Positions 7,975 to 58,564 of a stretch of 64,000 nt of DNA are shown in pieces. Under the pieces are notes generated by a model, which did not search any database, was not told the DNA's origin, and saw nothing but the letters and a program-made list of their open reading frames with translations. Both the position numbers and the translations under genes were made by a program. Each line of letters starts with the position of its first letter. Position 1 is the first letter of the stretch. Origin of the DNA: Verrucomicrobium sp. BvORR034 (lineage in GTDB: Bacteria; Verrucomicrobiota; Verrucomicrobiia; Verrucomicrobiales; Verrucomicrobiaceae); assembly GCF_000739635.1 (NCBI RefSeq), contig NZ_BATQ01000008.1:1-64000 (forward strand), read 5' to 3'.

Positions 7975-8493
7975 ATGAACCTCCGCGCTTCCCTTCCCGT
8001 TGTTTCTGCTGCCGTGGCCCTGCCCCTCCTGCTTTCCAGTTGTGTGGTGGACGACGGGTATGGCTACTCCGACTCCCCCGGCGGCTACTATGAAGGCTCC
8101 TCCTACCCGCGACGCTACAGCAGCGGTTATGGGAACTACTATGGTGGAAACTACGGGAACTACTACGGCTCGGGGTACGGGTCCTCGTACAACCGCCGGC
8201 GTTACTACGACAATCATGATCATGACCACGACCATGATCATGACCACAATCGCAAGTACAGCTCCTCCTCCAGCAAGAAGTACTCGTCCTCCAGTTCGTC
8301 CCGGTCCTCGCAGGTGCAACATGGGGATCACTACCATTCGAGCCAGAGGAAGAAGTCGGAGCACCAGTCCATGATCCGTCGTGGGGATGATGACGATCGC
8401 AAGTCTTCCTCCTCCAGCCGCAGCTCCTCATCCAAGAAAAAGGATGACGATGACAACAAGAAGGGCGGCATCCACGGGCGGGAGAGGCGTTAA
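7975..8493 (+). CDS. Tyr/Gly/His/Ser-rich lipoprotein, second of the tandem set
   Basis: 172 aa from the ATG at 7975. Lipobox LLSSC (Cys about 22) followed by CVVDDGYGYSD, then Gly-Tyr-rich repeats (GNYYGGNYGNYYGSGYGS). A (DH)n tract starts at about residue 80, then polyserine, 'HGDHYHSSQRKKSEHQSMIRRGD' and the C-terminal GGIHGRERR. The CVVD start, the HGDHYHSSQ-RK-xxH-xMIRRGD block and the tail are shared with the next gene, so the two are clear paralogues. The Asp-His run could bind metal ions; that is speculation. No known domain recognised. The stop TAA lies inside the repeat at 8489. Confidence 0.8.
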   Translation: MNLRASLPVVSAAVALPLLLSSCVVDDGYGYSDSPGGYYEGSSYPRRYSSGYGNYYGGNYGNYYGSGYGSSYNRRRYYDNHDHDHDHDHDHNRKYSSSSSKKYSSSSSSRSSQVQHGDHYHSSQRKKSEHQSMIRRGDDDDRKSSSSSRSSSSKKKDDDDNKKGGIHGRERR

Positions 8494-8577
8494 GAGTTAG
8501 ACGTTAAGGGTTAAGAGATGGGAGGGGCATCAAGCGTGTCTCTCGCCTCTCTTAACATCTAACTTTTAACACCTAAC
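8489..8577. repeat. Heptad-phased inverted repeat after the second lipoprotein gene
   Basis: Left arm from 8489 and right arm about 8540-8577, both with GTTANNN 7-bp phasing read inwards (for example GTTAAGA GTTAGAC GTTAAGG GTTAAGA against GTTAGGT GTTAAAA GTTAGAT GTTAAGA). The stop TAA (8491-8493) of the upstream gene is part of the first unit. Same family as 2227-2319. Confidence 0.8.
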
Positions 8578-8694
8578 ATCGCCCTCGTTCGCGCCTCGGC
8601 ACGGCGGTGGATTCAAGAAATGATCAGCAGCGCTGATTATAGTTTGTCGCGTCTTTGAATGATTGGGCAGAGGGGGACGTCAAACCTCTTTGCC

Positions 8695-9228
8695 ATGACT
8701 CCTTTAGCAAAAATCCCCCTTTTGGCCACCGCGCTGGGTCTGGCGATGCTCCTGTCCAGCTGCGTAGTGGATGGTTATGCCTACCGCGAACCCTATGGCG
8801 GTGGGTATTACGATGATGACGACTACTATCCCGTGCGCTCCCGGGGCTCCTACTATGGAGGCTACCCGTCGTACTCCTCCTCTTATTACGGGGGGTACCC
8901 GTATGGATACGGGTATCCTTACGCCTACGGTGGCGGTGCATTGGTCGGCAGTTCGTACTACTATCGGAACCGGTACTACGACAACCATCGCCACCATGAT
9001 CACGACGGCAATCACCGACGGTACTATGCGAACCGCAGTGGAGGATCCTACTCGAACCGGCAGGTGCCGCACGGAGATCACTACCACTCCAGTCAGCTGA
9101 GGAAGAACCAGCACAACGCTATGATTCGCCGTGGCGACAGCACGCTGAACACCCGCACCATCTCCAGCCGGAGTAGCAGCTCCAGCAAGAGCAAAGGCGG
9201 TACCAGCGGGCGTGAACGGAGAAGGTAA
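8695..9228 (+). CDS. Tyr/Gly-rich lipoprotein, third of the tandem set
   Basis: 177 aa from the ATG at 8695, which directly precedes the signal peptide (MTPLAKIPLLATALGLAMLL, lipobox LLSSC). Mature start CVVDGYAYREPYGGG, followed by about 80 residues dominated by Tyr, Gly and Ser, a short His/Asp stretch (NHRHHDHDGNH), HGDHYHSSQLRKNQHNAMIRRGD and the C-terminal GGTSGRERRR. Paralogue of the preceding gene. The aromatic Gly-Tyr repeats look like a structural or cell-surface coat segment. Function unknown. Confidence 0.8.
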   Translation: MTPLAKIPLLATALGLAMLLSSCVVDGYAYREPYGGGYYDDDDYYPVRSRGSYYGGYPSYSSSYYGGYPYGYGYPYAYGGGALVGSSYYYRNRYYDNHRHHDHDGNHRRYYANRSGGSYSNRQVPHGDHYHSSQLRKNQHNAMIRRGDSTLNTRTISSRSSSSSKSKGGTSGRERRR

Positions 9229-9283
9229 TCCGGCCAGCTACGCGGGAGACAGACGGCTTTAAGACACAAGACCAGATGTCAGA

Positions 9284-9424
9284 GGCGGAGCAAAGTAGTG
9301 CGGCATTTTAGTGAGTCAGTCGCGTAGCCGAGCGCGAACAACGCGAGCTAAAGCTCTGCACTACTTTAGGCTACCGCCTGCCTCGTAATCCGGTTGTCCC
9401 AACCGGCTTTGGGAGCGAAGCGGG
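9284..9424. repeat. Family B repeat (CCGGTTG-TCC-CAACCGG element)
   Basis: Contains 'GGCGGAGCAAAGTAGTGC' (from 9284), its inverted partner 'GCACTACTTTAGGC' (about 9356-9370) and a perfect 7-bp hairpin CCGGTTG-TCC-CAACCGG at about 9390-9406, followed by 'CTTTGGGAGCGAAGCGGG'. Further copies lie at about 23627-23800, 44998-45060 (reversed) and 63358-63600. The 9229-9541 gap holds this element and no gene; it is downstream of both neighbouring genes (convergent), so a terminator role is possible. Confidence 0.75.
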
Positions 9425-9541
9425 ATGCGTGTGGGGTGATTGGACATAGTGATCGTCTGCCGCCCCAGGAATGGCGTGGCAAAGGAGTGTGTCAGTCGTG
9501 GGTTCGAGCGCGAACAACACGAGCTAAAGCTCTGGACGAGT

Positions 9542-10837
9542 TTAAGATGCCACCCCGAAAGGAGACTCCAGTACGATGGTGTCGTCCCGATGCGCTCCTG
9601 TAGAGACCATGGTGACCGGGACGTCCACGAGCTCTTCGATGCGACGGACAAAGTTCCGGGCCTCCTCCGGCAGTTCTTGGAAATCACGAATACCGGCGGT
9701 GGGCCGTCGCCAGCCGGGCAGGGTTTCATAAACCGCATTCAGTTCTTCGGAGAGACTGGCTGGTGGTTCTTTGAGGAGTTGGCCCTTGAACCGGTAGCCC
9801 GTGGCCACTTTCACCTCCACCATGCCGTCCAGCACATCCAGCTTGGTCAGCGCCAGGGATTGAATGCCTCCGGCACGGATGCCCGCGCGGACCGTGACCG
9901 CATCGAACCAGCCACAACGTCGCGGCCGGCCGGTGTTCACCCCATACTCGCCACCGCGCTCGCGCAAGGCGTCGCCTTCCGGACCGCTCAGTTCCGTGGG
10001 GAAGAGGCCGTTACCCACCCGGGTGGTGTAGGCCTTGCAGACGCCCAGCACCGTGGCCTGCACGGCCGCCCCATAGCCTGTGCCCAGCGCGGCCTGGGCG
10101 GCGGCGGTATGGGAGGAGGTGACGTACGGATAGGTGCCGTGATCCACATCCAGGAGGATGGCCTGAGCGCCCTCGTACAACAGACGTTCACCTGTCCGGG
10201 CGGAGGCCTCCAGCAGCGGGGGTACGGCGGCGACATAGGGGAGAAGGCGGGGAGCCAGAGCCAGCAACTGCTGGAGCAGCGTTTCCTTCTTCACTGTCGG
10301 CTCACCCCAGCCAGTGAGGAGGGCGTTGTGGTAGGAGAGCAAATCTTCCACCCGCTCCTCCAGCAGGGCGGCATCGGCCAGATCCCCAGCGCGGATGGCG
10401 CGCCGACCAGCCTTGTCCTGGATCGCGGGACCGATCCCCCGGAGGGTGGTGCCGATCGGCCGACGCCGTCGGGATTCCTCCGCTGCCTCCACTTGGTGGT
10501 GCACCGGCAAAACGAGCGCCGTCCGGTCTGACACGATGAGTTGATCAGGGCTCACATCAAGACCCTGTTGCTGCACCGCATCCATCTCGCGAAACAGGGC
10601 CTCCGGATTCAGCACCACGCCGCTGCCGATGATCCCGGGTCGCCCATGGAGCAGACCGCAGGGCAGGAGGTTCAGTTTCCACATCTTGCCGCGGGCCACC
10701 AGGGTGTGTCCCGCGTTGTTTCCGCCGTTGAACCGGATCACCCGGTCGGCCTGGGCTGCCAGCAGGTCCACGATCTTGCCTTTCCCTTCATCGCCCCATT
10801 GGGCTCCCATCACGATGCATTGTTGATTCGTTTTCAT
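9542..10837 (-). CDS. purA: Adenylosuccinate synthetase
   Basis: 431 aa. Catalyses GTP-dependent condensation of IMP and aspartate to adenylosuccinate in AMP synthesis. Signature GAQWGDEGKGKIVDLLA at the N-terminus (residues 11-27), NNAGHT with the catalytic His near 40, GTTLRGIGPAIQDKAGR near 130-145, YEGAQAILLDVDHGTYPYVTSS near 220-241 and TGRPRRCGWFDAV near 305. The ATG at 10837 gives the standard N-terminus. It is divergent from the LysR-type gene with only about 90 nt between start codons. Confidence 0.97.
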   Translation of the reverse strand: MKTNQQCIVMGAQWGDEGKGKIVDLLAAQADRVIRFNGGNNAGHTLVARGKMWKLNLLPCGLLHGRPGIIGSGVVLNPEALFREMDAVQQQGLDVSPDQLIVSDRTALVLPVHHQVEAAEESRRRRPIGTTLRGIGPAIQDKAGRRAIRAGDLADAALLEERVEDLLSYHNALLTGWGEPTVKKETLLQQLLALAPRLLPYVAAVPPLLEASARTGERLLYEGAQAILLDVDHGTYPYVTSSHTAAAQAALGTGYGAAVQATVLGVCKAYTTRVGNGLFPTELSGPEGDALRERGGEYGVNTGRPRRCGWFDAVTVRAGIRAGGIQSLALTKLDVLDGMVEVKVATGYRFKGQLLKEPPASLSEELNAVYETLPGWRRPTAGIRDFQELPEEARNFVRRIEELVDVPVTMVSTGAHRDDTIVLESPFGVAS

Positions 10838-43935: not shown

Positions 43936-44574
43936 TCAGTCCGCGGCCCGGGTGATCGTGTAGCCTGCAGGTGCCCGGAAGGCGGAGTCGGGAATCTCCT
44001 CGAACCGCACCGATTTCACGGTGGTGATGCAGGGGAAGCTTTCACTGCCGGTGCAGCTTTTCAGGATCATGCCATCCATTTCCGGCGGCAGGGCGGTGGT
44101 GTCGCTTGCAGATTTCACGGTGGCCAGCTCGGCCTTGATGCGGTCGTAGTCCGGGTAGGACTTGGCCACCCAGAAGGTGGACTTCATGCCGAGCACTTCC
44201 ATGGTGACCACGACGCAGTCGTAGCCATTGACCTTCTCGGTCAGCCCGGTGACGGTGTACTTTGGGACCATCGGCGGTGTGGTGGTGTTGTCAGCCGCCG
44301 CTGCGGGCTGGCGCATGACGGTCACCTCGCGTGCCGGGTGCATGACCGTCATCACTTCCCGGTCCTTGGTGTTGGCAATTGTGCTCAGCTCTTCGCAGAT
44401 GTCAGCGCGGACCATGCCGCCCTGGATGCGCATCACCGTCTCATTGCGGGCTTCAGATCCCTCCACCGTCTGCTCAAGCACCAGCCCGGCCCGCAGAGGA
44501 CCAGCGGTGCAGAGAATCGCGGCACTGGCCACAGCCATGCCGAGCAGGGGGCGGAGGATTGGGCTCGTCTTCAT
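43936..44574 (-). CDS. Secreted DUF4412-like protein, copy 1
   Basis: 212 aa from the ATG at 44574. Signal peptide (…LLGMAVASAAILCTAGPLRAG), then 'GLVLEQTVEGSEARNETVMRIQGGMVRADI', a DUF4412-like beta-rich domain with 'VNGYDCVVVTMEVLGMKSTFWVAKSYPDYDRIKAEL'. A close paralogue, well over half identical by eye across the length, lies at 54958-55590. This copy has two extra Cys (SCTGSESFPCITT) that could form a disulfide. Function unknown. Confidence 0.78.
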   Translation of the reverse strand: MKTSPILRPLLGMAVASAAILCTAGPLRAGLVLEQTVEGSEARNETVMRIQGGMVRADICEELSTIANTKDREVMTVMHPAREVTVMRQPAAAADNTTTPPMVPKYTVTGLTEKVNGYDCVVVTMEVLGMKSTFWVAKSYPDYDRIKAELATVKSASDTTALPPEMDGMILKSCTGSESFPCITTVKSVRFEEIPDSAFRAPAGYTITRAAD

Positions 44575-45086
44575 ACTCCTTGCATTTGGGTTTTCCGTGG
44601 TTTGTGACGGATTACGTCTGGCCATGGATCGCGGATGGAGAAAAGGGCGGCAGATCCTCTGTAGGTTTCTGATCAGTCTCCCCGGAGGTCGGAGTCCATC
44701 GATGAGCTCGGCATCAACGTGTTATATAGGAGGATGCGGCCGCTTTGACATCGTCGTTCGGCTGTCCCAGCCGTTCAGGAGGTCGGAGGGAAATGCGCAC
44801 TGAGTCCAATGCGGAAACTGGACAAGCATGAAGCTGACGGGCCAACCCTTCGCTCCCACGCGGGGCTGGGAACCCCCGCCTCCTTTCAGCTTCCAGGCCT
44901 GCGGTACGTAAAAGGAGGGAGGGGCATTCCTATCCCGGTCGGACGTGCGGTCCTGACGCAGCAGACCTCATTGCGATCAAGAGCCCAACGCGGCGGCCTC
45001 CTCCGCTTCCAAAGCCGGTTGGCACAACCGGACTACGCGGCGGGTGGCAGCTGAAAGTAGTGCTAGTCTCGTATGCGGGACTGTGA
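44575..45086. other. Intergenic region with an inverted family B copy
   Basis: 512 nt without a credible gene. Near 44748-44775 is a 'cgttcggctgtcccagccgttcagg' word. At about 44998-45060 a reversed family B element occurs (CGAAGCGGAGG-type end, CCGGTTGGCACAACCGGACTACG, then AAAGTAGTGC). It lies at the 3' end of the leftward nadR operon, so it may act as its terminator. Confidence 0.55.
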
Positions 45087-46124
45087 CTACCTTGCTTGGC
45101 GCAGGCACGCATCTACCTGCTCCATCCGCTCCTGCACATCTCCCCGCACCTCCACCCATGTCGCGCCCATGGCGGTAAGTTGTTCCTCGTACCAATCATG
45201 CTGTTGTTGCCGAAACGCCGTGTCCCGCCGTGTCCCATCCTGGTCAAAGGGGATGTCCGGGGCACAGAGCACGTACAAGTCGTACTTCCGCTTCGCCAGA
45301 GTCCGCAGCTCTGGTTCGGCACGGCCGTGATCTTCCAGGCAGTAAAACAAGGTGGTCAACGGTGAGGTGTCGCAGAACAAATAACGGTTTGCCCTGCCGG
45401 CGGCCTCTGCTTCCCGGGCCACCTGCACCACTCCGATATGCAACAGATCCTCATACGACAGGTGCCCGCCCTGGTCCACCCAGAGCTCGCGGCCGTACTC
45501 CGTGACATGCAGCGTGTCATATTTCTGCGCCAGCGCGGTGGCCAGCGTGCTTTTGCCGGAGGATTCCCCGCCCAGGAGGCAGATGCGTTTCACAAAGGAG
45601 GCATAGACCACGGGGGACAACCACTGCCGCAGGCCATGGGGATCTGCCCGCAAGGCGGTGCCGCTCACGGGCAAGATGCTGCGACCTGGATCCACGGGCA
45701 CGTGAACCACCTCGGCATGGTCGGCATCAACTTCATCTCGGAAATAACACGTGAGCTCCGCGGCGAAGCCGTCGCCATAGCTTTCGCTTGTGAACACGGC
45801 ATCCACGGTAGTGTGCAGCACCTCCCGGCACCCCTGGCCGACAAACCGGCGGTGCCGCGATTCATCGGGATCGTCATTGGGCGGCGGCACCAGACCCCAG
45901 GGGTTGTCCGCTCCCAGCACGATGCGGGTGGTTTCTGGAAACAAGCTCTCCAGCCACACCGCCCGCTTCTCTGGTTCACAGCCCGGGAACTCCGGTACGG
46001 TGTAGCTCAGTACCACCACGGTTTCGCATTCCGCCAGGGCACGGCGGATCACAGCCTCATGACCCTTGTGCAGCGGGCAGAGCTTGCCCACCACCAGACC
46101 ACGCTGAAAGCGGCGCGTGATCAT
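45087..46124 (-). CDS. nadR: NadR-type NMN adenylyltransferase / ribosylnicotinamide kinase
   Basis: 345 aa from the ATG at 46124. The N-terminal nucleotidyltransferase has GKLCPLHKGH (13-22) and SGTALR (154-159). The C-terminal kinase P-loop is GGESSGKST (185-193), followed by ELRTLAKRKYDLYVLCAPDIPFDQDGTR. It converts nicotinamide riboside to NMN and NMN to NAD. The N-terminal DNA-binding repressor domain of enterobacterial NadR is absent. It overlaps pnuC by 4 nt (ATGA), so uptake and phosphorylation are coupled. Last gene of the eight-gene leftward cluster. Confidence 0.94.
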   Translation of the reverse strand: MITRRFQRGLVVGKLCPLHKGHEAVIRRALAECETVVVLSYTVPEFPGCEPEKRAVWLESLFPETTRIVLGADNPWGLVPPPNDDPDESRHRRFVGQGCREVLHTTVDAVFTSESYGDGFAAELTCYFRDEVDADHAEVVHVPVDPGRSILPVSGTALRADPHGLRQWLSPVVYASFVKRICLLGGESSGKSTLATALAQKYDTLHVTEYGRELWVDQGGHLSYEDLLHIGVVQVAREAEAAGRANRYLFCDTSPLTTLFYCLEDHGRAEPELRTLAKRKYDLYVLCAPDIPFDQDGTRRDTAFRQQQHDWYEEQLTAMGATWVEVRGDVQERMEQVDACLRQAR

Positions 46125-46753
46125 GCGACAGCAGAGGCAGAACCGGCCTCCGGATTGGATGTCGCCCCGCTGGCTTGTTGCGTCCGCAGCAACTGGTGCC
46201 AGTACCGCAGGGAAATCACCGCATTGATCCAGAAGGCGAAGTACAGGCCTGCGGTCACATAGAGTCCGCGGCTTGCAAAGAGCGGTACGGAGATCGTGTT
46301 CACCACCAGCCAGCACCACCAGTTCTCCACCCGACGGCCCACCAGAAGGAACTGCGCCACCACGCTGAAGGTCAGCACGGTGGAGTCCCAGTAGGGCGCA
46401 TAGGCATCGGTGTAATGGTGCAGCATGAGCCCGTAGGCCCCCGCCACGGCCAGGGCTGCCATCACCAGGACCAGACCCATCATGGGCGGCGTGCGGCGGA
46501 TCGGCAACTCGGTTGGGGACAGGCCCTTGTTTCCTCCACGCAGCCATCGCCACCAGCCCAGGGCACTGGCGGCGATGAAGAAGAACTGCAGCGCCACGTC
46601 GGCATACAGTCTCGCATCATAGAACACCTGGGCAAACAGCGCGCAGCCCAGGATGCCCGTCCACCAGGTGTGTACGCTGTTGCGTCCCGCCAGCAGGATG
46701 GACAGGGCGTTGACGGTGTTGGCGGCGATTTCCAGGATCAGATCCAGATTCAT
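46121..46753 (-). CDS. pnuC: Nicotinamide riboside transporter PnuC
   Basis: 210 aa from the ATG at 46753 (MNLDLILEIAANTVNALSIL). Seven hydrophobic segments, with the PnuC-type features 'NSVHTWWTGILGCALFAQVFYDARLYADVALQFFFI' and 'ENWWCWLVVNTISVPLFASRGLYVTAGLYFAFW' (parts: WWTGILG, NWWCWLVVN). Facilitates nicotinamide riboside entry, trapped by the NadR kinase. Overlaps both neighbours by 4 nt. Confidence 0.93.
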   Translation of the reverse strand: MNLDLILEIAANTVNALSILLAGRNSVHTWWTGILGCALFAQVFYDARLYADVALQFFFIAASALGWWRWLRGGNKGLSPTELPIRRTPPMMGLVLVMAALAVAGAYGLMLHHYTDAYAPYWDSTVLTFSVVAQFLLVGRRVENWWCWLVVNTISVPLFASRGLYVTAGLYFAFWINAVISLRYWHQLLRTQQASGATSNPEAGSASAVA

Positions 46754-48111
46754 GAGGTAGCGGGATCGGCGAGATCCGAGGTGTATTGGATGACCTTGCC
46801 ATCCAGGAAGTCTTGTTGTTCGATGTGCAACCGCAGGCCGTCGCCAAGAATCGATTGCAGGATCTGCCGCAGTTGGGTGTTCAGAGAGTCCATGCCGGCA
46901 TGACGGAATGTCACGGCTCCGTCCGTTCCCTGATGCACCGTCCACTGGGGCAGGGCCAGCGGGCGGAGGGCGTGGGTGATCTCGATATTGTTGATCCACG
47001 AACCCGAGGTGGTTCGATACCTCACCGGGGGCCGCCCCTGCAAGCCCACCAGCACTGGCTCCGGGCCGCGGAAGTCCAGCGCCGCGTGATCGCCGGTGCG
47101 ATATCTCAGCAGCGGCAGACAGAAGTTGAAGCCGCCCGTCAGCGTCACCTCGCCGCGTTCGCCTGGGGGCAGGGGGCGGTCTTCGTCATCCAGGATCTCC
47201 ACATACATGCGCGGTTGCAGCAGCACATGCCCGCCTGAGTTGGGATCTGCCACGGCAATAGGTCCTGCCTCGTTCATGGAGTACAAATCCAGCACTGGGC
47301 ACTGGAAGCGCGCCTCCAGTCGCTGACGGAGACCGGGCAGCAGCGTCATGGAGGTGCTCAGGAGCGCACGCGGCCGCCAGGTCACCGGCAGGGTGAGGAG
47401 CTCGGCAAAGGAAATGGGATCTCCTGTGTACACCTCCGCCTTCAGGTCATCCAGATACTTCGCCCGGTCTTCAGGATCACGCCAGTCGTCCGGGTGGAGG
47501 TTGATCTTGGCCAGCCCCGCCTCATTCATCGTGGGCGTCACGGAGACATAGGTGAAGCACTTCTTCTGGTGACCGATCAGCACCACCCCCACCTCACCCG
47601 CGCCGGCCAGGAGCGTGATGCCAACGCGGCGCAGCGCCCGCTTGTGAAAGGCCAGGTACGAGGCCGCCACCACGGGGTGGGAGGCCAGCAGCAGGGGGTG
47701 CCCGCTCGTGCCGCTGGTGCGGAAGTTGATCATCCGCTCCACCGGCACGCTGTCCGGCACGAAGGCCGCAATGTCCCGGCTCAGGTCGGCGCGGGAGACG
47801 GAGGGAATGTCCTCGAACCTTACGGGTGGCACCCCCTGCCTGCGGTAGTGCGGCACGTCGGCATAGGTGCTGGCGGTGAACTCCTCCAGCCAGCGCGGCG
47901 GTTTCCCAGCGCGCCAGTCGATGGCGGCCGCGGCGACCTCGCTTTCAAAGGCCCGCACGCGCGCCACTTCCTCGGGCAGCAGGCGGTTGCCGCTTTCATT
48001 GCGGTAGATGGGAGCATGGGGATGCTCTTTCAGAAAACTCAGCAGGCGCTGCCCCGCCGGTGTCAGGGTGGGGTAGCGGTCCAGATCAGTGGGCTGGGGA
48101 TCGGCGTCCAT
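46750..48111 (-). CDS. Adenylate-forming ligase (CapK / phenylacetyl-CoA ligase type)
   Basis: 453 aa. ANL-superfamily motifs: the phosphate-binding loop RTSGTSGHP (131-139), aromatic-x3-Glu motif LYSMNEAGPI (YSMNE), and YRTGDHAALD (the Asp contacting ribose). Overall it resembles PaaK/CapK-like enzymes, which activate a carboxylate as the acyl-adenylate. The C-terminal subdomain is present ('SGSWINNIEITHALR...'). Substrate unknown. It overlaps pnuC by 4 nt and begins 9 nt after the 194-aa gene, so it belongs to the same transcript. A CoA or amine acceptor cannot be inferred. Confidence 0.82.
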   Translation of the reverse strand: MDADPQPTDLDRYPTLTPAGQRLLSFLKEHPHAPIYRNESGNRLLPEEVARVRAFESEVAAAAIDWRAGKPPRWLEEFTASTYADVPHYRRQGVPPVRFEDIPSVSRADLSRDIAAFVPDSVPVERMINFRTSGTSGHPLLLASHPVVAASYLAFHKRALRRVGITLLAGAGEVGVVLIGHQKKCFTYVSVTPTMNEAGLAKINLHPDDWRDPEDRAKYLDDLKAEVYTGDPISFAELLTLPVTWRPRALLSTSMTLLPGLRQRLEARFQCPVLDLYSMNEAGPIAVADPNSGGHVLLQPRMYVEILDDEDRPLPPGERGEVTLTGGFNFCLPLLRYRTGDHAALDFRGPEPVLVGLQGRPPVRYRTTSGSWINNIEITHALRPLALPQWTVHQGTDGAVTFRHAGMDSLNTQLRQILQSILGDGLRLHIEQQDFLDGKVIQYTSDLADPATS

Positions 48112-48120
48112 GCGGAGAGA

Positions 48121-48705
48121 TTATTCGCGGGTGTATTTGTCGGCCGATTCCTCCGCCGCCTTCTTGGCCAGCGCCTCGCGAATGGCCCGGGCCCTCAACT
48201 CGGCAGCCCGGGCGGCAGCGATGACGCGGGACCGTTCCGTGGCACTGAGGCTGGTGAGGCGGTCCTGTGCCTGGGCGGGTGACTCGCCCTCTGGGCGGAA
48301 GTCCAGCCGCGCCAGGGTGATGCGGGTGATTTCCTCGCTCCGGTCCGGATCGGTGAGGAATGCATGGGCCACTGTCTGCTCCGCCAGATCACGGGCCGTG
48401 CCTTCCAGCAGGGGCAGGAGGGTCCCGGCACTGAACCGGTGTTTGATGAACCACTCATCCGCTGCCAGCCAGGTAAGCAGCAGGGTGACAGCCAGCCGGT
48501 TGCGGTCCCGGGAGGCGTCCTTGCCGGTGAAGGCCGCCATCTCGGAGGGTGTGGGGGCGGCACCATGCAGCCGCAGCAGATCTGCCACCACGGAGTCCAC
48601 ATGCACTCGTCCCTTGGAGCCGATCTTCGGTTCATCCAGAAACTCAGCCGGCGTCTCCGCGAGCCGGTGCAGCAGGGTTTCGAGTGGAGGGCCTTCGTGG
48701 GTCAT
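48121..48705 (-). CDS. Helical protein of unknown function in the MoxR cluster
   Basis: 194 aa. Ala/Leu/Arg/Glu-rich, predicted helical throughout. 'VADLLRLHGAAPTPSEMAAFTGKDASRDRNRLAVTLLLTWLAADEWF' (parts) looks like a compact helical bundle. The charged C-terminus (RAAELRARAIREALAKKAAEESADKYTRE) is coiled-coil-like. No signal peptide, cysteines or catalytic motifs. Likely a cytoplasmic partner of the neighbouring enzymes; I do not recognise the family. Confidence 0.65.
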   Translation of the reverse strand: MTHEGPPLETLLHRLAETPAEFLDEPKIGSKGRVHVDSVVADLLRLHGAAPTPSEMAAFTGKDASRDRNRLAVTLLLTWLAADEWFIKHRFSAGTLLPLLEGTARDLAEQTVAHAFLTDPDRSEEITRITLARLDFRPEGESPAQAQDRLTSLSATERSRVIAAARAAELRARAIREALAKKAAEESADKYTRE

Positions 48706-48717
48706 GGGGGAGAGAGA

Positions 48718-48766
48718 AATTATGAATTATGAATTATGAATTATGAATGCGGAATGCGGAATGCGG
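48718..48766. repeat. 4 x AATTATG plus 3 x AATGCGG heptad array
   Basis: 49 nt: four perfect AATTATG units (48718-48745) followed in phase by three perfect AATGCGG units (48746-48766). It lies within the leftward cluster, between the radical SAM stop (48788) and the start of the 194-aa gene (48705). On the transcribed strand the first type carries TAA. Confidence 0.9.
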
Positions 48767-48787
48767 GGCGGGAGGTTCGGGCTTGGC

Positions 48788-49819
48788 TCACAACCCGTAA
48801 GTCCCAACTTTGACCTTGGCCGTTGTGAACTTCGCACACACTTGGGTGCTGTGACAATCCTCGCACGCGGCGGCACGATGACCGTTGCGAAGCTGACGAA
48901 AGCGGTCCGGCAGGGACAACAGATCGCCTACAGTACGCAATGCTGAGATGGGCACGCCATAGGCCTCCGGGGTGTAGCTGCACGGCGCGATGCGACCGGC
49001 TTCGTCCACGAAAAGGAAGCTCTGCCCCGGGTGGCAGTCTGCCACGGACAGATGGCGGCCCTGGGCGGTCATGGCCAGCCGCTGCAGGTAGGCGGCCCCA
49101 CCCAGCAGGTGTACCCCTTGATCAGCCAGTCGTTGTTGCCAGCCAAGCCAGCGGTCGGCCAGCCAGTCCACCTGGGCGGGGAGGAGCCGGTGGGCGGGGT
49201 AATACTCCGGCCGGTCCAGGCCGCCGAGCTGGTTGCAAGTGATTTCCTCGATTCCCCAGTCCGCGAGACTCTGGCAGAGAGCGGGAAAGGCGGTCACTGT
49301 TTCGCGAAAGAGCACCACATTCGCCCGCAGCAGGGGGCCTTGGCCCGTCAGGTTCTTTTGTCGCGCCAGCGTCTGCACGCCCTCCCGCAGACCGTCATGC
49401 AGACCGGATTGTCCGCGCAGGGCATCGTGCACCGCCGCAGTGCCGTCCACGCTCACGGTCAGCTCCGCATAGTATTCCTGAAGGTGCGACTGCACCTCCG
49501 CGCGATGCAAGGTGGTGCCGTTCGTCGTGGTGCTGAGGCGCAGGTGCAGATCATCCCGGCAATGGCGGGTGAGCGCCTCCAGCGGCTTCCACAGCAGCGG
49601 TTCCCCGCCCAGCCAGCTCAGCAGCACCGGGCGGCCCGTGACTTGGGACCAGGCGGCCAGCACGGCGGCAAAACGGCGTATCTCAGCCGGATCCGCCACA
49701 CCCCGGGGGCGCTCCAGCCGGGCGTCATAGGCGCAGAAAGGGCACCGCAGATTGCAGCGCTCAGTCACACGCCACACCACCACCAGGGGATCCTGTGAAA
49801 CTGACGCCAGCGGGTTCAC
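48788..49819 (-). CDS. Radical SAM protein with C-terminal Cys cluster (SPASM-like)
   Basis: 343 aa. The [4Fe-4S]-SAM motif is CNLRCPFC (Cys22, Cys26, Cys29), followed by LSWLGGEPLLWKPLE (GGE motif) and STTTNGT. The C-terminal region has CHPGQSFLFVDEAGRIAPCSY and CEDCHSTQVC (Cys319, 322, 328), consistent with auxiliary Fe-S cluster ligands of the SPASM/twitch type. Such enzymes modify peptides or proteins (sactipeptide, PQQ or maturase families). The start overlaps the VWA gene stop by 4 nt, arguing for coupled expression. No precursor peptide gene is apparent nearby. Confidence 0.88.
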   Translation of the reverse strand: MNPLASVSQDPLVVVWRVTERCNLRCPFCAYDARLERPRGVADPAEIRRFAAVLAAWSQVTGRPVLLSWLGGEPLLWKPLEALTRHCRDDLHLRLSTTTNGTTLHRAEVQSHLQEYYAELTVSVDGTAAVHDALRGQSGLHDGLREGVQTLARQKNLTGQGPLLRANVVLFRETVTAFPALCQSLADWGIEEITCNQLGGLDRPEYYPAHRLLPAQVDWLADRWLGWQQRLADQGVHLLGGAAYLQRLAMTAQGRHLSVADCHPGQSFLFVDEAGRIAPCSYTPEAYGVPISALRTVGDLLSLPDRFRQLRNGHRAAACEDCHSTQVCAKFTTAKVKVGTYGL

Positions 49820-51705
49820 AATTGGATCGGAGGGCGGGGTGCGCCGTGGCCGGCGGTCCCGCTGGTGAAGGTTCGAGGTTTTACCGAGCGGGTGACCTGC
49901 TGACCCCGGCCGTAGTGCTGCCGGCTGAAGGCCCGGGCAAAGGCCACCAGATCCTCCCAGGTGGCCACCCGGTGCACGTTCCAGCCTTGTTCATCGCGCG
50001 CTCTTTTGATGGCGGCAAACGAGGCATAGGTTCCCGCATGCTGCTCCCAGTTCTGGGCCAGGTTCAGCACCATGGTGCCGCCGCCGCGCGCCTTCTCCAG
50101 CGCCATGGCACTCACATCCCAGCCGGAGTTGCCCTTTTCATCCTGTTGGAAGAGCGTGTCCACCCCATCGTCTGAGATGATGAGGATGTGCGCAGGCCGG
50201 GCATCCGGCGGACGTGGGCCAAAGGTGTCGCGGAGCTGGTGGATGGGGAAGGCCGTGCCGCCGCCGAAGTAGCCGGTAAGCACGCGCAGGATGGACACCT
50301 CATCCCTCACAAAGCCCGGGGTCGTGGTGTATTGCTGCTTCCAGCTCCACAGGGTGGCCTGTACCCGTGCGCCGGTGCGCAGGGCGGAGAGGCAGATGAT
50401 CGCCCCCGCCAGCGCCGGGTAGGAGATGAGCATCTGTGGATTGGCCATGGAGCCGGAGCTGTCCACATAGATATCCAGATCCAGGGGTTCCTTGCGCGGT
50501 TCCACCCCCTCGCTCTCGCCCCAGATGCGTTGCACCGTGGTCACGCCGGGGATGACCTTGGGGCTGATCAGCACACTTTGCATCCAGTCCAGGGCATCCA
50601 TGGGATCGCCCAGTGCCCAGGGCTCCAGCCCCTCCGGCAGGGGATCAGAACTGCGGGGCAGCTCCCGCGTGGGGAAGGGGATGAGGTGGGGCAGCGCCTG
50701 TTCGCGGTAATAACGCACTGCAGCATCGTGATCACTGATGGGCACACCGGCTGCGCGCAGGATTTCACCATATTCAAACGGCTGCCGTGCCTGACCCCGC
50801 GCCTGCTGGTTGGCGGGCACCATCGTGGGCAGGACGTCCCCTGCGACCTCGGTGTCTGCGTCCGCTCCCATGGACTCGCCGTTCAGCTCCGGATCCAGCG
50901 CGGGATGGATTGCACCCTCCTTTTCGCCCGGTTCCATTTCGGTGAGGCCGGTGATCTCGCCACCCACGGCTGCGCCCTTGGTGTCGAAGAACTTCGCCAG
51001 CAGCTCCTGGGACTTCTTGTCCTCCAGCAGATGCGGCAGGAGCAGGGCGGCAAAGCGGCCGCTGCCCTGCAGCCAGTCCCGGGAGTACACGCGGATGAGC
51101 CGCGCCCCCAGCCAGGCATCGCCATCGCTGCGGTCATCCACCGTGCCCGCCAGCGACCCGCGCTCCAGCCGCCAGAGTATTTCATAGATCCGCATGTAGA
51201 GCTTCCACACTGCGCCATCGGCGGAGCCCTCCTGCTGTTTGCGGATGCGGCGGTAAACCTCGTCCATGCGCAGGCCCGCGCTGCGTTGCAGGCGGTCGTT
51301 GATGAGGAGATCCGTGTACAGATTGGCCACCATGGGGGCCTGGTGCTCCAGGGTGGGCAGGCCCCAGCGCATGCGGGAGAGCATGCGGCCGTGGTCGGTG
51401 AGGTTGGCCGGGGCCAGCACGTGGTGGCCGATCTCGTGGGCCAGGATTTCGACCCCCAGGTCCGACACATCGGAGGCCATCACCTCTGCCAAGCTCACCA
51501 CCACCGCCTGATCCGCGAGGCGGATCATCGCGAAGCTGCCCGCGAGCCCCTCGCGGCGCTCCTCGTCCGGCGTCACGCAGAGCCGGGGCGGGCTCAACCG
51601 GGTGAAGCGGCTCCATGCCTCCAGCGCGGCCGGCCATTGTTCCTCCCACCGGAGGCGCAGGGCCTCCAGCTGTTGGGGATCGAACCGATGCGGCTTGCGT
51701 TTCAT
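49816..51705 (-). CDS. Zincin-like metallopeptidase / von Willebrand A domain protein
   Basis: 629 aa. Residues 87-100 contain ILAHEIGHHVLAP with HEIGH (90-94), a zincin motif. The following helices resemble the DUF2201-type metallopeptidase-like domain that precedes VWA domains. The C-terminal VWA domain carries the MIDAS DSSGS at 415-419 (DLDIYVDSSGSMANPQ) with later Thr/Asp positions (GGGTAFP, IISDDGVD). It is the VWA partner expected for the MoxR ATPase, as in ViaA-RavA, CbbO-CbbQ or NorD-NorQ pairs. 4-nt overlaps with both flanking genes. Confidence 0.85.
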   Translation of the reverse strand: MKRKPHRFDPQQLEALRLRWEEQWPAALEAWSRFTRLSPPRLCVTPDEERREGLAGSFAMIRLADQAVVVSLAEVMASDVSDLGVEILAHEIGHHVLAPANLTDHGRMLSRMRWGLPTLEHQAPMVANLYTDLLINDRLQRSAGLRMDEVYRRIRKQQEGSADGAVWKLYMRIYEILWRLERGSLAGTVDDRSDGDAWLGARLIRVYSRDWLQGSGRFAALLLPHLLEDKKSQELLAKFFDTKGAAVGGEITGLTEMEPGEKEGAIHPALDPELNGESMGADADTEVAGDVLPTMVPANQQARGQARQPFEYGEILRAAGVPISDHDAAVRYYREQALPHLIPFPTRELPRSSDPLPEGLEPWALGDPMDALDWMQSVLISPKVIPGVTTVQRIWGESEGVEPRKEPLDLDIYVDSSGSMANPQMLISYPALAGAIICLSALRTGARVQATLWSWKQQYTTTPGFVRDEVSILRVLTGYFGGGTAFPIHQLRDTFGPRPPDARPAHILIISDDGVDTLFQQDEKGNSGWDVSAMALEKARGGGTMVLNLAQNWEQHAGTYASFAAIKRARDEQGWNVHRVATWEDLVAFARAFSRQHYGRGQQVTRSVKPRTFTSGTAGHGAPRPPIQL

Positions 51706-52760
51706 GGTGCGTCGTCTTCTCCTCCATGGCCCGGCACCGCGTAGAGCAGCACCGCATGGGTCAGCGCGCCGGTGATGGCCACGGTGTGGTCCAGCCGGGC
51801 CACACTGGTCACGGGGCCGATGTCCGCGGGCACTTCCACGCCGGCCGGTACCTGTGGGATCTGCGGGCGGGCGGCGGCCAGCTCCTCCGGAGTGGCCCGG
51901 TGGAAGGTCGCGCCAAAGGCATCCGCGGTGAGCAGCCAGCCATCATTGCCGCTGCGCACATAGAGCTGGTCCTGTGCCACCACCAGGCGCGGTGGTTCAG
52001 GAAACAGGCCGCCGAATCCGCGAAAAGCCCCAGTGCGCCGTATCAGCCGCGAGGTGCTCGGGTCCCTCCCGTTGGAATGGCCTCTGCCGTTGTTTCCCAG
52101 TCCCCGGGTCCAGCGCCCGTCTTGCAGTCGCTGACGAATCTCTGGCCAGGTGGAGATGTCCGGCGCGTGGGATGCCGGATAGCCGTTGGAGGTCTCAGGC
52201 ATGGTCAGCGCCGCCAGCGCCAGTTCGGGAGGCAACGTGTCCGCCACCGACAGCGCGCTCTCCCGGTAGTGAGCCAGTCCGCAACGCCAGGCCGCCACCT
52301 GCCCCGCTTTGAGAAAGGTCTCGGGCGATTCTGCCAAGGGGGCGAGACGGGTCAGAATTCCCAGCCAGTCCTGTGGCCGGGCGCCGGGCACGGTGCCCAG
52401 TTGATGCGCAGCATTGCTCAGGGCCCCGATAACCTCACGAGGCGCGGCCATGACATGAGTCAGTGCGACGGGCAGCCCTTCTTCCCAGAGCCGCTGGATC
52501 CACGGGTGCCGGGCCTGGGCTCCCACCAGTCGTTGGGCCACCAGCTCCAGGCCCACCTCATAGCCCGCCTGCGCCACGGCCACCGCTGCCTCCGGGTTCG
52601 TGGAATGCACCTTCACCACCAGCGGATCCAGCGTGATCTGCAGGAAGTTTGAGAACGACTCCGCCTCCAGCGCCGGGAACTGTTTCTTCGCCAGCGCGTA
52701 CTGGGCGTTGAACTCCTCGCGACCGGACTTGAGGATGGCGGTGAAAACGGCGGAGATCAT
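51702..52760 (-). CDS. Unknown protein between MoxR and VWA genes
   Basis: 352 aa from the ATG at 52760. The N-terminal ~190 residues are helical ('AVAVAQAGYEVGLELVAQRLVGAQARHPWIQRLWEEGLPVALTHVMAAP', in part). A basic low-complexity linker follows (RGLGNNGRGHSNGRDPSTSRLIRRTG). The C-terminus is beta-rich ('PRLVVAQDQLYVRSGNDGWLLTADAFG'). No known motif recognised. By position it would be the third component of a MoxR/VWA ternary set. Overlaps the VWA gene by 4 nt. Confidence 0.72.
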   Translation of the reverse strand: MISAVFTAILKSGREEFNAQYALAKKQFPALEAESFSNFLQITLDPLVVKVHSTNPEAAVAVAQAGYEVGLELVAQRLVGAQARHPWIQRLWEEGLPVALTHVMAAPREVIGALSNAAHQLGTVPGARPQDWLGILTRLAPLAESPETFLKAGQVAAWRCGLAHYRESALSVADTLPPELALAALTMPETSNGYPASHAPDISTWPEIRQRLQDGRWTRGLGNNGRGHSNGRDPSTSRLIRRTGAFRGFGGLFPEPPRLVVAQDQLYVRSGNDGWLLTADAFGATFHRATPEELAAARPQIPQVPAGVEVPADIGPVTSVARLDHTVAITGALTHAVLLYAVPGHGGEDDAP

Positions 52761-52849
52761 GGGGGAAAGAGGTCCATTCTGTTTAACCACAGAGACGCAG
52801 AGAGCACAGAGGAAGGGAAGATTTTTGATTCAACGACTCGCCCGCATCC

Positions 52850-52907
52850 CGGTTCACTGAATCACTGAGCTACTGAATTACTGGTTTACCGAATGACTGA
52901 ATTACCG
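52850..52907. repeat. Octad array at the 3' end of the MoxR gene
   Basis: Read on the minus strand, seven 8-bp units: CGGTAATT, CAGTCATT, CGGTAAAC, CAGTAATT, CAGTAGCT, CAGTGATT, CAGTGAAC. All but one contain a stop triplet, and the stop codon of the ATPase (TAA, complement of 52902-52904) is in the first unit. Same unit family as 59891-60032. An ACCACAGAGACGCAGAGAGC word lies near 52786-52805. Confidence 0.8.
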
Positions 52908-54485
52908 ACTCTTCAACCAGCGCAGGTAGTTCGTGTACCGTTGGTGCAGGTACTTCAGCTTCAGCATGTCATCGTAGAGATGGCCGTACATCTTGTTGCC
53001 CCGGGCCCAGTCGGTGATGAGGCGCTCGATCTTCACCAGGCGGGAGGCCACTTCGGATTCGCCCACCCCGTCCAGGCCCACGCGGAACTCGCTGGCCAGC
53101 TGGGCCACGGGATCGTCGCGATCCAGGTTCAGGCGGTCGTACTCGGCGCAGCTCAGGTCAAACACCCGGCGCAGCCAGCCCACGCGGTCGGAGCGGAAGG
53201 CGGTGTTGCCCGGGCTTTCGAAGAACGGCGCATCCACGTCCTGCACCAGCTTGTCGAACAGCACAAATGGCAGGATCTGCCGCAGGTCCTCCAGTTCCAC
53301 TTCGGGATTCCCACGGAAGTAGGCGATCGCCTTGGCGTAGTGGATGATCGTCATGAGCGCGCGAACAGAGAGACCGTTGCGCGTCTGGCAGCCCAGGTCC
53401 TTGATCTTGTCACGCCCCGTGTCGCGGGCGGTGAGCGTGGCCCATTCCACCCCGGCAAGGCGGGCGGTGTCTTTCGTCTTGTACTCGAACTGTTCGCCCG
53501 CCACCTCGCAGAACTCAAACTGGCTGGTGAAGAACTCCAGCCGCCGCCGCACCTGTACAGGCAGCGCCACGGCACGGATCTCATCCTGCAGACGGTCGAT
53601 CTCCGTCTCGGTGAAGATGATCTGCTTGGGCACCACTTCCTCGGGGCGGATCCTTTCCTCGATCCGTGTCACCAGATCGGACAGGAAGCGGGGGTTGAAG
53701 GCCAGCGCCTGCACCACCACGTCGATACGGTCGCGCAGCGCCTCGATGACCTGGTACGTGCCACCGCCCTGGTCGTCGTTCGCCGTCAGGAACCACGCCG
53801 CTTCCGGGCACTCATGGATGTGGTCCATGATCTCCGCGTAGTTGTCGCCCATCACCGTCAGCAGGGCGCTCTGCGTGCGGGTGGGGATGCGGTTGTATTC
53901 GTCGATGATCTTCACCCGCATGTCCAGCCACCCGCGCCAGGCGATCCGGATGTCCTTGATGTCCTGGGCATTCACCAGGTCGGCTGGCAGCGGATTGCCC
54001 AGCAGATCGGCGATGGTCATCTGCGGATGTCCGTGCAGCATGGCCCGTCGGACCTCCCGCACCGGGTAACCACCTAGCACTCCCATGAGCAGCGCGCTCG
54101 CCGTCTTGCCCCGGCCCGGTCCGCCGATGAAGAGGCACTTGCGCCGCGTGGCGAAGGTCAACAGCGGTAGGAGGACGAAGCTGGAGTAGCTCTGCGAGGA
54201 AGGGAGCGTCAGCCGGCTCTTGGAGTCCCCCAGCAGGAAGGAGCGGGGCGGCTCGGTGTTGTACTCCACATCATAGTGCGGGCTGATGATCGCCGTGTTG
54301 ACGATCCAGAAGTACGCCTGCCGCAGCTTCTCATCCAGCGGCAGCCCTCCACCTGTGCCGGTCGCGGCGGTGTCGGAGACCGGCCCCCGGTAGAGATCAG
54401 CCACATCAAACTGCCGGCTGACCGGGGCGGTATGGGGGTTCGTAGGAGCCTGGGACAGGCGCTGAAAGAGATCTCGCAAGGCCAT
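52902..54485 (-). CDS. MoxR-family AAA+ ATPase
   Basis: 527 aa, longer than typical MoxR (~320) because of N- and C-terminal extensions. Walker A GGPGRGKT at 121-128, Walker B VKIIDEYNR near 191-199, sensor I AAWFLTANDD, and an arginine-finger-type region ALRDRIDVVVQALAF. MoxR ATPases are hexameric AAA+ chaperones that act with VWA proteins to remodel or metallate target complexes. First gene of the leftward cluster, 141 nt before the next gene, with a repeat in the gap. Confidence 0.9.
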   Translation of the reverse strand: MALRDLFQRLSQAPTNPHTAPVSRQFDVADLYRGPVSDTAATGTGGGLPLDEKLRQAYFWIVNTAIISPHYDVEYNTEPPRSFLLGDSKSRLTLPSSQSYSSFVLLPLLTFATRRKCLFIGGPGRGKTASALLMGVLGGYPVREVRRAMLHGHPQMTIADLLGNPLPADLVNAQDIKDIRIAWRGWLDMRVKIIDEYNRIPTRTQSALLTVMGDNYAEIMDHIHECPEAAWFLTANDDQGGGTYQVIEALRDRIDVVVQALAFNPRFLSDLVTRIEERIRPEEVVPKQIIFTETEIDRLQDEIRAVALPVQVRRRLEFFTSQFEFCEVAGEQFEYKTKDTARLAGVEWATLTARDTGRDKIKDLGCQTRNGLSVRALMTIIHYAKAIAYFRGNPEVELEDLRQILPFVLFDKLVQDVDAPFFESPGNTAFRSDRVGWLRRVFDLSCAEYDRLNLDRDDPVAQLASEFRVGLDGVGESEVASRLVKIERLITDWARGNKMYGHLYDDMLKLKYLHQRYTNYLRWLKSR

Positions 54486-54957
54486 GGGGAGTCAGTTGTC
54501 GAGGGGGGCTTGGCGTGAAATGCCGCGCCGTGGGGGCGCGGCAGGCACGGCAGAATTCAACACGGAACGGCGGGCGGAGGCAAATGGGAAGCGTTGCTTC
54601 TCCTACATCGCCCAAGGTCTGTGCGACCCCAAGGAGCGGCGGTTTGTGCTTCAAGCACAACCGCCGGAGGTGGCCGGAGGAATGTCACCCTCAAGTCAGA
54701 CCGCAGCGATGGGGTCGCATACGGCGAAGGGCCGTTGAGGATCGCTCACTCCGCTTTCCCTCGGCGGTTGTGCAAGCACAAACCGCCGCTCCTTGGGGCT
54801 GCCAGACCAAGTGAGGACGCCCCGGGCAAGGTAGAAGAGCCGTCCCGGCTCTTGGGAGCGCTGGGTGAGGCGGGGGCAAGAACCGAGACGGTTCTTCTAC
54901 ACTGGCTGCATGCGAGCGCGTCAACCAGGCCTGCCCCCTTCAGGCCTCAACCTCACC
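54486..54957. repeat. Families C and E hairpin elements upstream of the MoxR cluster
   Basis: 472 nt without a gene. Two family C hairpins in inverted orientation lie at about 54630-54665 and 54763-54797 (GGCGGTTGTGC-AA-GCACAAACCGCC core plus GCTCCTTG). A family E inverted repeat is at 54831-54900 (GTAGAAGAGCCGTCCCGG against AAGAACCGAGACGGTTCTTC, with compensating substitutions). 54721-54795 is near-identical in layout to 58321-58395. The promoter of the cluster must lie to the right of 54485, within or beside these repeats. Confidence 0.75.
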
Positions 54958-55590
54958 TCACTGGCGGCTCACCGTGTACCCGGCCGGAGCCTTGAACACA
55001 TCCGCCGGTATTTCCTCGATCTTCACAGACTTGATCGTGACGATGCCCAGGTACTTCGGGCCCACGGTGCTGGTTTTCAGGATCAGCCCGTCCAGTTCCT
55101 TCGGCGTCTCGGGCGCACCACTGGCCGGCTTGATCGTGGCCATCTCGGCCTTGATCTTGTCATAGTCGGGATACGACTTGGCCACCCAGAACGTGGATTT
55201 CATCTCCCCCATCTCCATGCTCACGACGTTGCATTCGTAGCCGTTCACCTTCTCGGTCATGCCGAGCACCTTGTACTTGGGGGTGGGCAGGTTCGGAATC
55301 TTCGGCGCCGCTTCGCCCTTGGGCTGGCTGATCACCGACACCATCTTGGCCGGGTGGATGATGGTCATCACCTCTCCCGCCTTTGTGTCCGCAATCGTGG
55401 AAAGCTCCTCACTGATATCCGTCCGGATCATCCCATTCTGAATGCGCATCGTCGTCTGGCTCGGCGCCTCCGAGCCCTCCATGGTCTGTTCCATGATCAG
55501 GCCAGCCTGGGTGGCGGCCGGGGTCAGAAGCGCGGTGGTTGTCAGGGCGAGCCCGAAGAGAGGGGAAAGGAACTTGTGGGTGTGAGTCAT
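54958..55590 (-). CDS. Secreted DUF4412-like protein, copy 2
   Basis: 210 aa from the ATG at 55590. Signal peptide MTHTHKFLSPLFGLALTTTALLTPAATQAG, then the same domain as the protein at 43936-44574: 'EGSEAPSQTTMRIQNGMIRTDISEELSTIADTK', 'VNGYECNVVSMEMGEMKSTFWVAKSYPDYDKIKAEM' and the end 'EEIPADVFKAPAGYTVSRQ' (given in part). Lacks the two extra Cys of copy 1. The two paralogues are in the same orientation and bracket the MoxR-NadR cluster. Confidence 0.78.
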   Translation of the reverse strand: MTHTHKFLSPLFGLALTTTALLTPAATQAGLIMEQTMEGSEAPSQTTMRIQNGMIRTDISEELSTIADTKAGEVMTIIHPAKMVSVISQPKGEAAPKIPNLPTPKYKVLGMTEKVNGYECNVVSMEMGEMKSTFWVAKSYPDYDKIKAEMATIKPASGAPETPKELDGLILKTSTVGPKYLGIVTIKSVKIEEIPADVFKAPAGYTVSRQ

Positions 55591-57947: not shown

Positions 57948-58564
57948 GGCGTGGAGAAAAAGCATGCCAGTGCCGTAAGGGGAATGCCAGCGCGAAATGC
58001 AGTGGGGTGGGAGTGATGAGAGAGGGCGACGGTTTGTAGAACTCGCTTCGGAGTTCCCAGCTTCTTGGCAAGCGTACCCAGGGTGGCGGCTCGTGCCTCG
58101 CCTGACCCTGGGCTTGGTTGTATGACGCCTTTGGCGTCGGGTCTGGAGACGGCTGACGAGATAGCGCGGATCGGATGCTTACGAAGTTCTTCGCAAGGAC
58201 ACGTTGCTGTCACCCCTCGCGGGGTGAGAGAACGGGGAGCAATCCGGGGGTATCGCTACGCTCAACCCCCGGCTAAGGGCTGGGATGCCTCCGGCATCGA
58301 ATGCGGTCGTGTGCCCACATACGGCGAAGGGAATTTGGCGGTCAATCGCTCCGTTTCCCATAGGCGGTTGTGCAAGCACAAACCGCCGCTCCTTGTCCTG
58401 GCGGTGATCAACGGGGATGCTTTGGTTCTCAGGCACTTGATCTGACGCTGGCGATTCCTCTGAGAAATCCACGAGCGAATGCGTTTCATCCCGGCGCTTG
58501 TGAGCATGGATCTATGAACTTGGGATTCTGCCCGCGACTGCTCGCCCTGGCCTGCCCTTCCACC
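57948..58564. other. Intergenic region with a family C copy
   Basis: 617 nt without a credible gene, between divergent genes. A family C block at 58321-58395 repeats the layout of 54721-54795 (ACGGCGAAGGG start, GGCGGTTGTGCAAGCACAAA hairpin, GCTCCTTG end). Around 58135-58300 are further short palindromic words. Translated segments of this region have been open by chance only. Confidence 0.6.

Follow-up and report, generated by a model that had tools for sequence, protein, structure and literature searches.

Background and overview of the locus

MoxR-type AAA+ ATPases and their partner proteins with a von Willebrand factor A (VWA) domain work in pairs as a ring motor into which the VWA domain is plugged. 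In NorQ-NorD, CbbQ-CbbO, RavA-ViaA and CoxD-CoxE, the MoxR ATPase is encoded together with a VWA protein that has a metal ion-dependent adhesion site (MIDAS), likely a ring-and-plug motor. For NorQ-NorD, the MIDAS has been described to bind an acidic client residue, while it is dispensable for binding the AAA+ ring (PMC9976466). A MoxR-VWA core together with a third conserved protein is also found in the ternary conflict systems of the VMAP, iSTAND and FtsH types (PMC7159879). The third component of the FtsH type has two FtsH-type AAA+ domains, and in one variant of this type, a radical S-adenosylmethionine (SAM) gene is present and the VWA domain is fused to a helical domain (PMC7159879). Here, we describe an eight-gene locus with a MoxR-VWA pair from the 8.58 Mb genome of Verrucomicrobium sp. 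BvORR034, located in a stretch of 64,000 nucleotides (nt) of contig NZ_BATQ01000008.1 (positions 1 to 64,000, forward strand), which is referred to as the window.

Five of the eight genes encode the MoxR ATPase, the protein u352, a zincin-VWA protein, the protein u194 and a PaaK-like ligase; they constitute a core that is conserved and translationally coupled in ten phyla or more. Recurrent modules beside this core are a radical SAM gene and the genes NadR and PnuC for nicotinamide riboside (NR) salvage, and the alignments indicate that the active-site residues are preserved across core and modules. We tentatively read the core as a MoxR-VWA remodelling machine around a dedicated u194-ligase pair, which would serve as a maturation or modification system for some protein; we rate this reading at somewhat less than an even chance. 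The genes are as follows (lengths in amino acids, aa):

52902..54485, minus strand: MoxR-type AAA+ ATPase, 527 aa, core gene 1, with AAA_3 and AAA_lid_2 matches above the Pfam cut-off
51702..52760, minus strand: u352, 352 aa, family without known relative, core gene 2
49816..51705, minus strand: zincin-VWA protein, 629 aa, core gene 3, with HExxH and MIDAS motifs
48788..49819, minus strand: radical SAM enzyme, 343 aa, GTG start, accessory, with Radical_SAM match
48121..48705, minus strand: u194, 194 aa, family without known relative, core gene 4
46750..48111, minus strand: PaaK-like AMP-forming ligase (ANL superfamily), 453 aa, core gene 5, with AMP-binding match
46121..46753, minus strand: PnuC nicotinamide riboside transporter, 210 aa, accessory, with NMN_transporter match
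45087..46124, minus strand: NadR without helix-turn-helix (HTH) domain (nicotinamide mononucleotide adenylyltransferase and ribosylnicotinamide kinase), 345 aa, accessory

A previous description made from the letters of the window only, called here the sequence-only reading, had listed eight leftward genes at 45087-54485 with five tight junctions among seven. All open reading frames were found on the minus strand at these coordinates, and re-reading the junctions gave the same count: four overlap by 4 nt, and one has a gap of 9 nt. The overlaps are ATGA between u352 and zincin-VWA, between ligase and PnuC and between PnuC and NadR, and GTGA between zincin-VWA and the radical SAM gene, which starts with GTG; the 9-nt gap lies between u194 and the ligase. 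MoxR and u352 are separated by 141 nt, the radical SAM gene and u194 by 82 nt. Short near-tandem repeats (TTCAGT..., CATTCATAATT...) occupy these two wide gaps (52761-52901 and 48706-48787), and the corresponding junctions of the homologues are typically tight. The window and six loci gave no Rfam match, hence no known riboswitch.

Conservation of the locus

The MoxR alignment was scanned against 84,980 species genomes, which yielded at least 80 loci. The MoxR-anchored counts given here refer to the 64 loci with at least 7 kb of downstream sequence among the matches listed. Next to MoxR, u352 and zincin-VWA were each present in 61/64 loci, u194 in 58/64 and the ligase in 56/64, and the core of five genes was complete in 54. 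The other genes are less regular, with NadR in 42/64, PnuC in 27/64 and the radical SAM gene in 20/64; NadR or PnuC was nearby in 43 loci, and all eight genes were found together in 16. The loci belong to at least ten phyla, including Pseudomonadota, Verrucomicrobiota, Spirochaetota, Planctomycetota, Thermodesulfobacteriota, Melainabacteria, Actinomycetota, Gemmatimonadota, Myxococcota and Acidobacteriota. The median junctions across loci range from -4 to +2 nt, and overlaps of 4 nt or 1 nt are frequent: u352/zincin-VWA in 40/65, zincin-VWA/radical SAM in 16/20, ligase/PnuC in 16/21 and ligase/NadR in 11/14. Mirror-tree correlations were high for all gene pairs, which is in part due to common descent.

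Since MoxR had served as bait, a search with u194 only was run as an independent test. Among the 75 genomes of a Massilia genus covered by this search, 13 contained u194, and each of the 11 loci looked at showed the arrangement MoxR-u352-zincin/VWA-u194-ligase-NadR, although two of them end at contig ends within u352.

Within the family of the window genome, zincin-VWA is present in 6 of 68 genomes, three from its own genus and the others from two further genera. The ligase occurs in exactly these six genomes and NadR in the same six and one other. Five of the six carry all eight genes in identical order. In the sixth (G316), u194, ligase, PnuC and NadR are all present behind an insertion. The family genomes carry the genes of the block jointly or not at all. 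A loss of genes 5-8 in G316 was a first appearance only, as the contig end shows all of them behind the insertion. Likewise, the apparent confinement of zincin-VWA and u194 to the window genome in a first sample of the phylum proved to be a sampling effect in the family-wide and all-genome searches. In G316 (L018 1826-10055), the block is split by genes for DUF4132/WGR proteins and an AAA_14/DUF4143 ATPase, and a frameshift affects the radical SAM gene near its C-terminus.

The recurring order and the overlaps across phyla place the cluster far beyond chance, and the set is a genuine operon. A chance assembly of unrelated genes has next to no probability: order, overlaps and joint presence are kept across phyla, nothing was found in its favour, and the neighbourhood data rule it out. 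The tight co-expression proposed by the sequence-only reading is strongly supported by the same data. That reading would have taken the set for a chance assembly if only the MoxR-VWA part were linked in related genomes. This outcome did not occur: u352, u194 and the ligase are regular partners as well. The radical SAM gene, PnuC and NadR are optional modules.

Proteins of the core

Above their cut-offs, Pfam recognised MoxR, the radical SAM enzyme, the AMP-binding ligase, PnuC and the kinase part of NadR; the 352-, 629- and 194-aa proteins of the window had no Pfam match. MoxR matches AAA_3 (1.5e-7) and AAA_lid_2 (1.4e-7), and its Walker A motif GGPGRGKT and the Asp-Glu of Walker B are invariant in 82 homologues. 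With Walker A and B, the MoxR lid and an adjoining VWA protein with MIDAS, it is a MoxR AAA+ ATPase with a VWA co-chaperone.

The zincin-VWA protein consists of an N-terminal zincin-like domain (HEIGHH...NLYTDLLIND) and a C-terminal VWA domain with MIDAS (DSSGS/T/D). HExGHH and the downstream D132 are invariant in 69 homologues and the MIDAS Asp is kept in 68 of them; DxSxS...D is conserved, with a displaced Thr column in one divergent subgroup. VWA_2 matches weakly in 22 of 68 homologues, and no zincin family of Pfam matches. The assignment made earlier holds, as HExxH and MIDAS are visible and invariant or nearly so. The order of motifs, HExxH followed by N-x3-D-x2-IN-x2-L, is shared with a DUF2201 metallopeptidase-VWA protein; unlike this family, the proteins described here have no Pfam match to PF13203 or PF09967 in 68 homologues, and the profile match over the HExxH...D motif is weak (probability 16%).

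u352 and u194 are two families for which no Pfam or PDB relative was found. Apart from scattered weak matches, Pfam recognised nothing in 71 homologues of u352. The AlphaFold2 model of u352 (predicted local distance difference test score, pLDDT, 91.4) has a helical N-terminal domain (about 1-185) and a C-terminal beta domain (about 230-345). Residues 230-349 gave weak VIA matches (Z about 8) to WD40 propellers, perhaps merely a common arrangement, and the modelled domain may bear a weak resemblance to two beta-propeller blades. Foldseek returned no PDB match for u352 at E<=0.001, and no clear fold emerged from Foldseek and VIA against the PDB, by which a new fold is not proven.

The model of u194 is all-helical (pLDDT 94.8, last residues about 65). 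No clear fold match was obtained with Foldseek and VIA against the PDB or with Foldseek against BFVD, which likewise does not prove a new fold, and NCBIfam gave no match. The C-terminal tail of u194 is KKAAEESADKYTRE in the window and ...ESADK[WY][TS]RE in the family, with the last Arg and Glu columns each kept in 57/64 homologues. We read this conserved tail, which the last helix of the model carries into the lower-confidence end, as exposed.

The ligase matches AMP-binding (1.1e-8) and has the conserved residues of the ANL motifs, with the C-terminal Lys in 52/60 homologues. Its closest PDB structure is the phenylacetate-CoA ligase 9s3l (E=6.7e-25), and the best NCBIfam match is the DVU_1553 family with 84.8 bits against a cut-off of 300. 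The DVU_1553 and PaaK-type AMP ligases, which have the ANL motifs in common with it, are the nearest named families, but the ligase lies far under both family cut-offs. A phenylacetate-CoA ligase equivalent to PaaK was accordingly rejected (32.4 bits against an NCBIfam cut-off of 646), and the enzyme is placed in the ANL superfamily by its motifs. The genes of u194 and ligase are adjacent nearly always. One locus (L058) has two u194-ligase pairs, which suggests that u194 and the ligase act together.

Radical SAM and NAD salvage modules

The radical SAM enzyme matches Radical_SAM with 4.1e-12, and its best NCBIfam match, TIGR04053, reaches 78 bits against a cut-off of 395. CxxxCxxC is present in 22/22 homologues and C262, C280, C319 and C322 in 21/22. 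The C-terminal cysteine cluster seen by the sequence-only reading is real, but only four cysteines are conserved, which is Twitch-like and not a full SPASM domain. With four cysteines instead of the seven of a SPASM domain and a SPASM match of 13 bits, below the cut-off, the enzyme was rejected as a SPASM peptide maturase of ribosomally synthesised and post-translationally modified peptides; no conserved short precursor gene was seen in the operon. In L058, L067, L078, L079, L084, L086 and L094, the ligase is followed by members of different radical SAM families, of about 240 and 370 aa, and only the smaller of the two was seen in L058. In the searched genomes of L067, L079 and L086, NadR and PnuC are absent genome-wide.

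PnuC is a clear member of its family (PF04973 7.2e-47, 160 bits; TIGR01528 78 bits; both above cut-off). NadR matches AAA_28 (2.5e-36) and TIGR01526 (2e-45), although its 155 bits fall short of the TIGR01526 cut-off of 341. H19 and H22 of its HxGH motif are conserved in 43/43 homologues and the P-loop Lys of the kinase in 41/43, and the HTH domain is absent here. Relative to the core, NadR/PnuC are placed in four ways: downstream in line, upstream in line, upstream divergent and downstream convergent. On the MoxR tree their presence changes at least 14 times and their arrangement 18 times, counts which contain noise from loci cut by contig ends and from missed starts. In the window genome, the pnuC and nadR of the block are the sole copies of each. 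Because of this repeated placement in varying arrangements and the sole copies in the window genome, the link of the core to NR salvage is most likely selected, though not obligatory. The link to nicotinamide adenine dinucleotide (NAD) is real and was re-established repeatedly rather than being incidental. The core also exists without NadR (G465, G468 and G470) or with NadR elsewhere in the genome (e.g. G463, G469, G471 and G474).

These data bear on two other explanations. PaaK-type ligases typically activate aromatic acids, and NadR/PnuC, the ligase and the radical SAM enzyme could together make a nicotinamide- or pyridine-derived compound such as a cofactor, a siderophore-like molecule or a signal, with MoxR/zincin-VWA merely maturing one of these enzymes. 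The apparently selected NAD link and the other radical SAM genes adjoining the ligase in the variant without NadR favour such a small-molecule pathway. We consider it unlikely but credible, as further conserved biosynthetic enzymes, an exporter and a carrier are missing, u194 and u352 appear non-enzymatic, and the core occurs without NadR and elsewhere without a close homologue of the radical SAM enzyme. Alternatively, the core might assemble or regulate an NAD-linked enzyme or transporter in NAD homeostasis, with the NR-salvage genes as its output. The sole copies of PnuC and NadR in the window genome agree with this, as does the almost perfect tracking of the core by NadR in the family (7 against 6 of 68 genomes), but core-bearing genomes that lack NadR or PnuC, or that have NadR elsewhere, make it a quite improbable explanation.

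Genomic surroundings and distribution

Further genes were observed in or beside the core. A nucleoside deoxyribosyltransferase-like gene is inserted between core genes in a planctomycete (L069 11588-12610), and a YhcG-type nuclease gene in an acidobacterium (L098 12630-13739). Just upstream of MoxR, L084 encodes a protein that combines isochorismatase, TCAD9 and dual-specificity phosphatase domains (7552-9951). The same family is found in L079, L093 and L094, and NadR is not beside the core in these variants. In G345 (L019 1107-5829), a separate set of SWIM, DUF5691 and MoxR (AAA_5) genes lies directly downstream of the block.

In the window, two paralogous DUF4412 proteins with 57% identity (43936-44625 and 54958-55590, both on the minus strand) flank the eight-gene block. 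The pair lies on both sides in the same orientation in L015 as well, and in L016 only the right-hand DUF4412 was found within the fetched stretch. Possibly, tandem DUF4412 copies were separated by insertion of the block. Upstream of the MoxR gene, there is a GC-rich intergenic palindrome with 42-nt arms (54627-54798), part of which is directly repeated 3.6 kb off at 58318-58395 (78 nt, 83%).

The sequence-only reading had offered two functions, a maturation machine and a stress or defence system that depends on nucleoside triphosphates (NTP) and uses up or rebuilds NAD. In the latter, the locus would act against stress or phages along the lines of the MoxR-VWA conflict systems, dependent on NTP and NAD, and NadR/PnuC would restore NAD after damage. 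Such ternary systems exist, and one class has a radical SAM effector (PMC7159879). The patchy distribution (13/75 genomes of the Massilia genus, 6/68 of the family) and the occasional nuclease, deoxyribosyltransferase-like and TCAD9/isochorismatase/phosphatase genes also point in this direction. Against it, a conserved effector, NADase or nuclease is missing, and the core sequences are well conserved. No PADLOC model fits, with only a partial similarity of the radical SAM enzyme to viperin and a short P-loop match of NadR. Phage and viral collections contained no homologue, and the plasmids only one partial MoxR match (31%); zincin-VWA was not found in the viral, phage or plasmid searches. The 136 flanking proteins sampled are mostly housekeeping proteins with scattered defence matches, a count without matched control and with one nuclease gene added by hand. 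We regard a defence role as rather improbable; of the two functions, the maturation machine fits better.

Proposed mechanism

In the maturation system that we favour, a MoxR ring plugged by the VWA domain would pull on or remodel a client held by the VWA MIDAS. The acidic tail of u194 (...K[WY][TS]RE-COOH) may be the likeliest MIDAS ligand, by analogy with the acidic client residue bound in NorQ-NorD, in which case u194 would be an adaptor or the client itself. u352 could act as a scaffold, and the zincin domain might trim or open the client. Because the ANL motifs are present, the ligase is expected to activate a carboxylate: its substrate for adenylation would be a small carboxylic acid, with the u194 terminus as a less likely alternative, and the adenylated product would be handed to the client bound by u194. 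The attached group would be made or tailored by radical SAM enzymes, of one type here and two others in the NadR-less variant, and NadR/PnuC would secure NAD or a nicotinamide nucleotide for this chemistry. In a more specific form, a nicotinamide-derived or radical-SAM-made carboxylate, activated by the ANL ligase, would be attached by the motor to the client presented by the u194 tail, as a new post-translational modification tied to NAD salvage; this form is doubtful, and we would give it little chance.

Three observations weigh against the maturation system. In Actinomycetota, u194 ends in YSQV and lacks the acidic end, though the MIDAS is intact there. A client protein is not consistently encoded beside the core. 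Finally, the radical SAM chemistry is not essential to the core, because many core-bearing genomes lack the radical SAM gene; in ten searched genomes that have the core without it, no close homologue was present anywhere.

Comparison with described systems

In the open literature searched, this combination is not described, in line with the remark of the sequence-only reading that it was unfamiliar; the nearest work is the survey of MoxR-VWA conflict systems (PMC7159879). The locus adds a MoxR-VWA system that is widespread and regularly includes two protein families for which no relative in Pfam or among solved structures was found. For the first time in the searchable literature, an AAA+/VWA machine is tied to carboxylate activation and NAD salvage. 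The recurrent placement of NadR/PnuC in varying orientations makes a need of the AAA+/VWA machine for NR salvage directly testable. Cultured hosts are available in Verrucomicrobium, Massilia, Duganella and Lysobacter, and the six-gene version of Massilia (MoxR-u352-zincin/VWA-u194-ligase-NadR) suits genetics by its size.

With the conflict systems, the locus shares the MoxR-VWA core, but no VMAP, effector-associated or effector domain is recognised by Pfam. It was rejected as an FtsH ternary system, as the operon encodes no other AAA+ ATPase and NadR is the only further P-loop protein; the radical SAM variant of the conflict systems belongs to the class with the FtsH-type pair (PMC7159879), which is absent here. 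A VMAP system, which has a helical VMAP protein, mostly with EAD or peptidase domains, and an effector on the VWA protein, is not indicated at the Pfam level, at which u352 and u194 have no convincing match and no effector domain was found. NadR salvage is not described in the survey (PMC7159879; 0 occurrences), and in contrast to the conflict systems, the operon has many hosts that are not known to be multicellular.

The FxSxx-COOH/FxsB system, which has a short precursor ending in FxSxx and an FxsB-type enzyme, likewise combines radical SAM and HExxH proteins with a partner whose C-terminal motif is conserved. It was rejected on the tail K[WY][TS]RE and the missing NCBIfam match: unlike in FxSxx-COOH, the partner u194 is conserved and fully folded and has another tail, and the radical SAM enzyme is optional. 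Compared with NorQ-NorD, CbbQ-CbbO, RavA-ViaA and CoxD-CoxE, no client enzyme is encoded in the operon, the VWA partner has a zincin-like domain, and u352, u194 and an ANL ligase are added to the MoxR-VWA pair.

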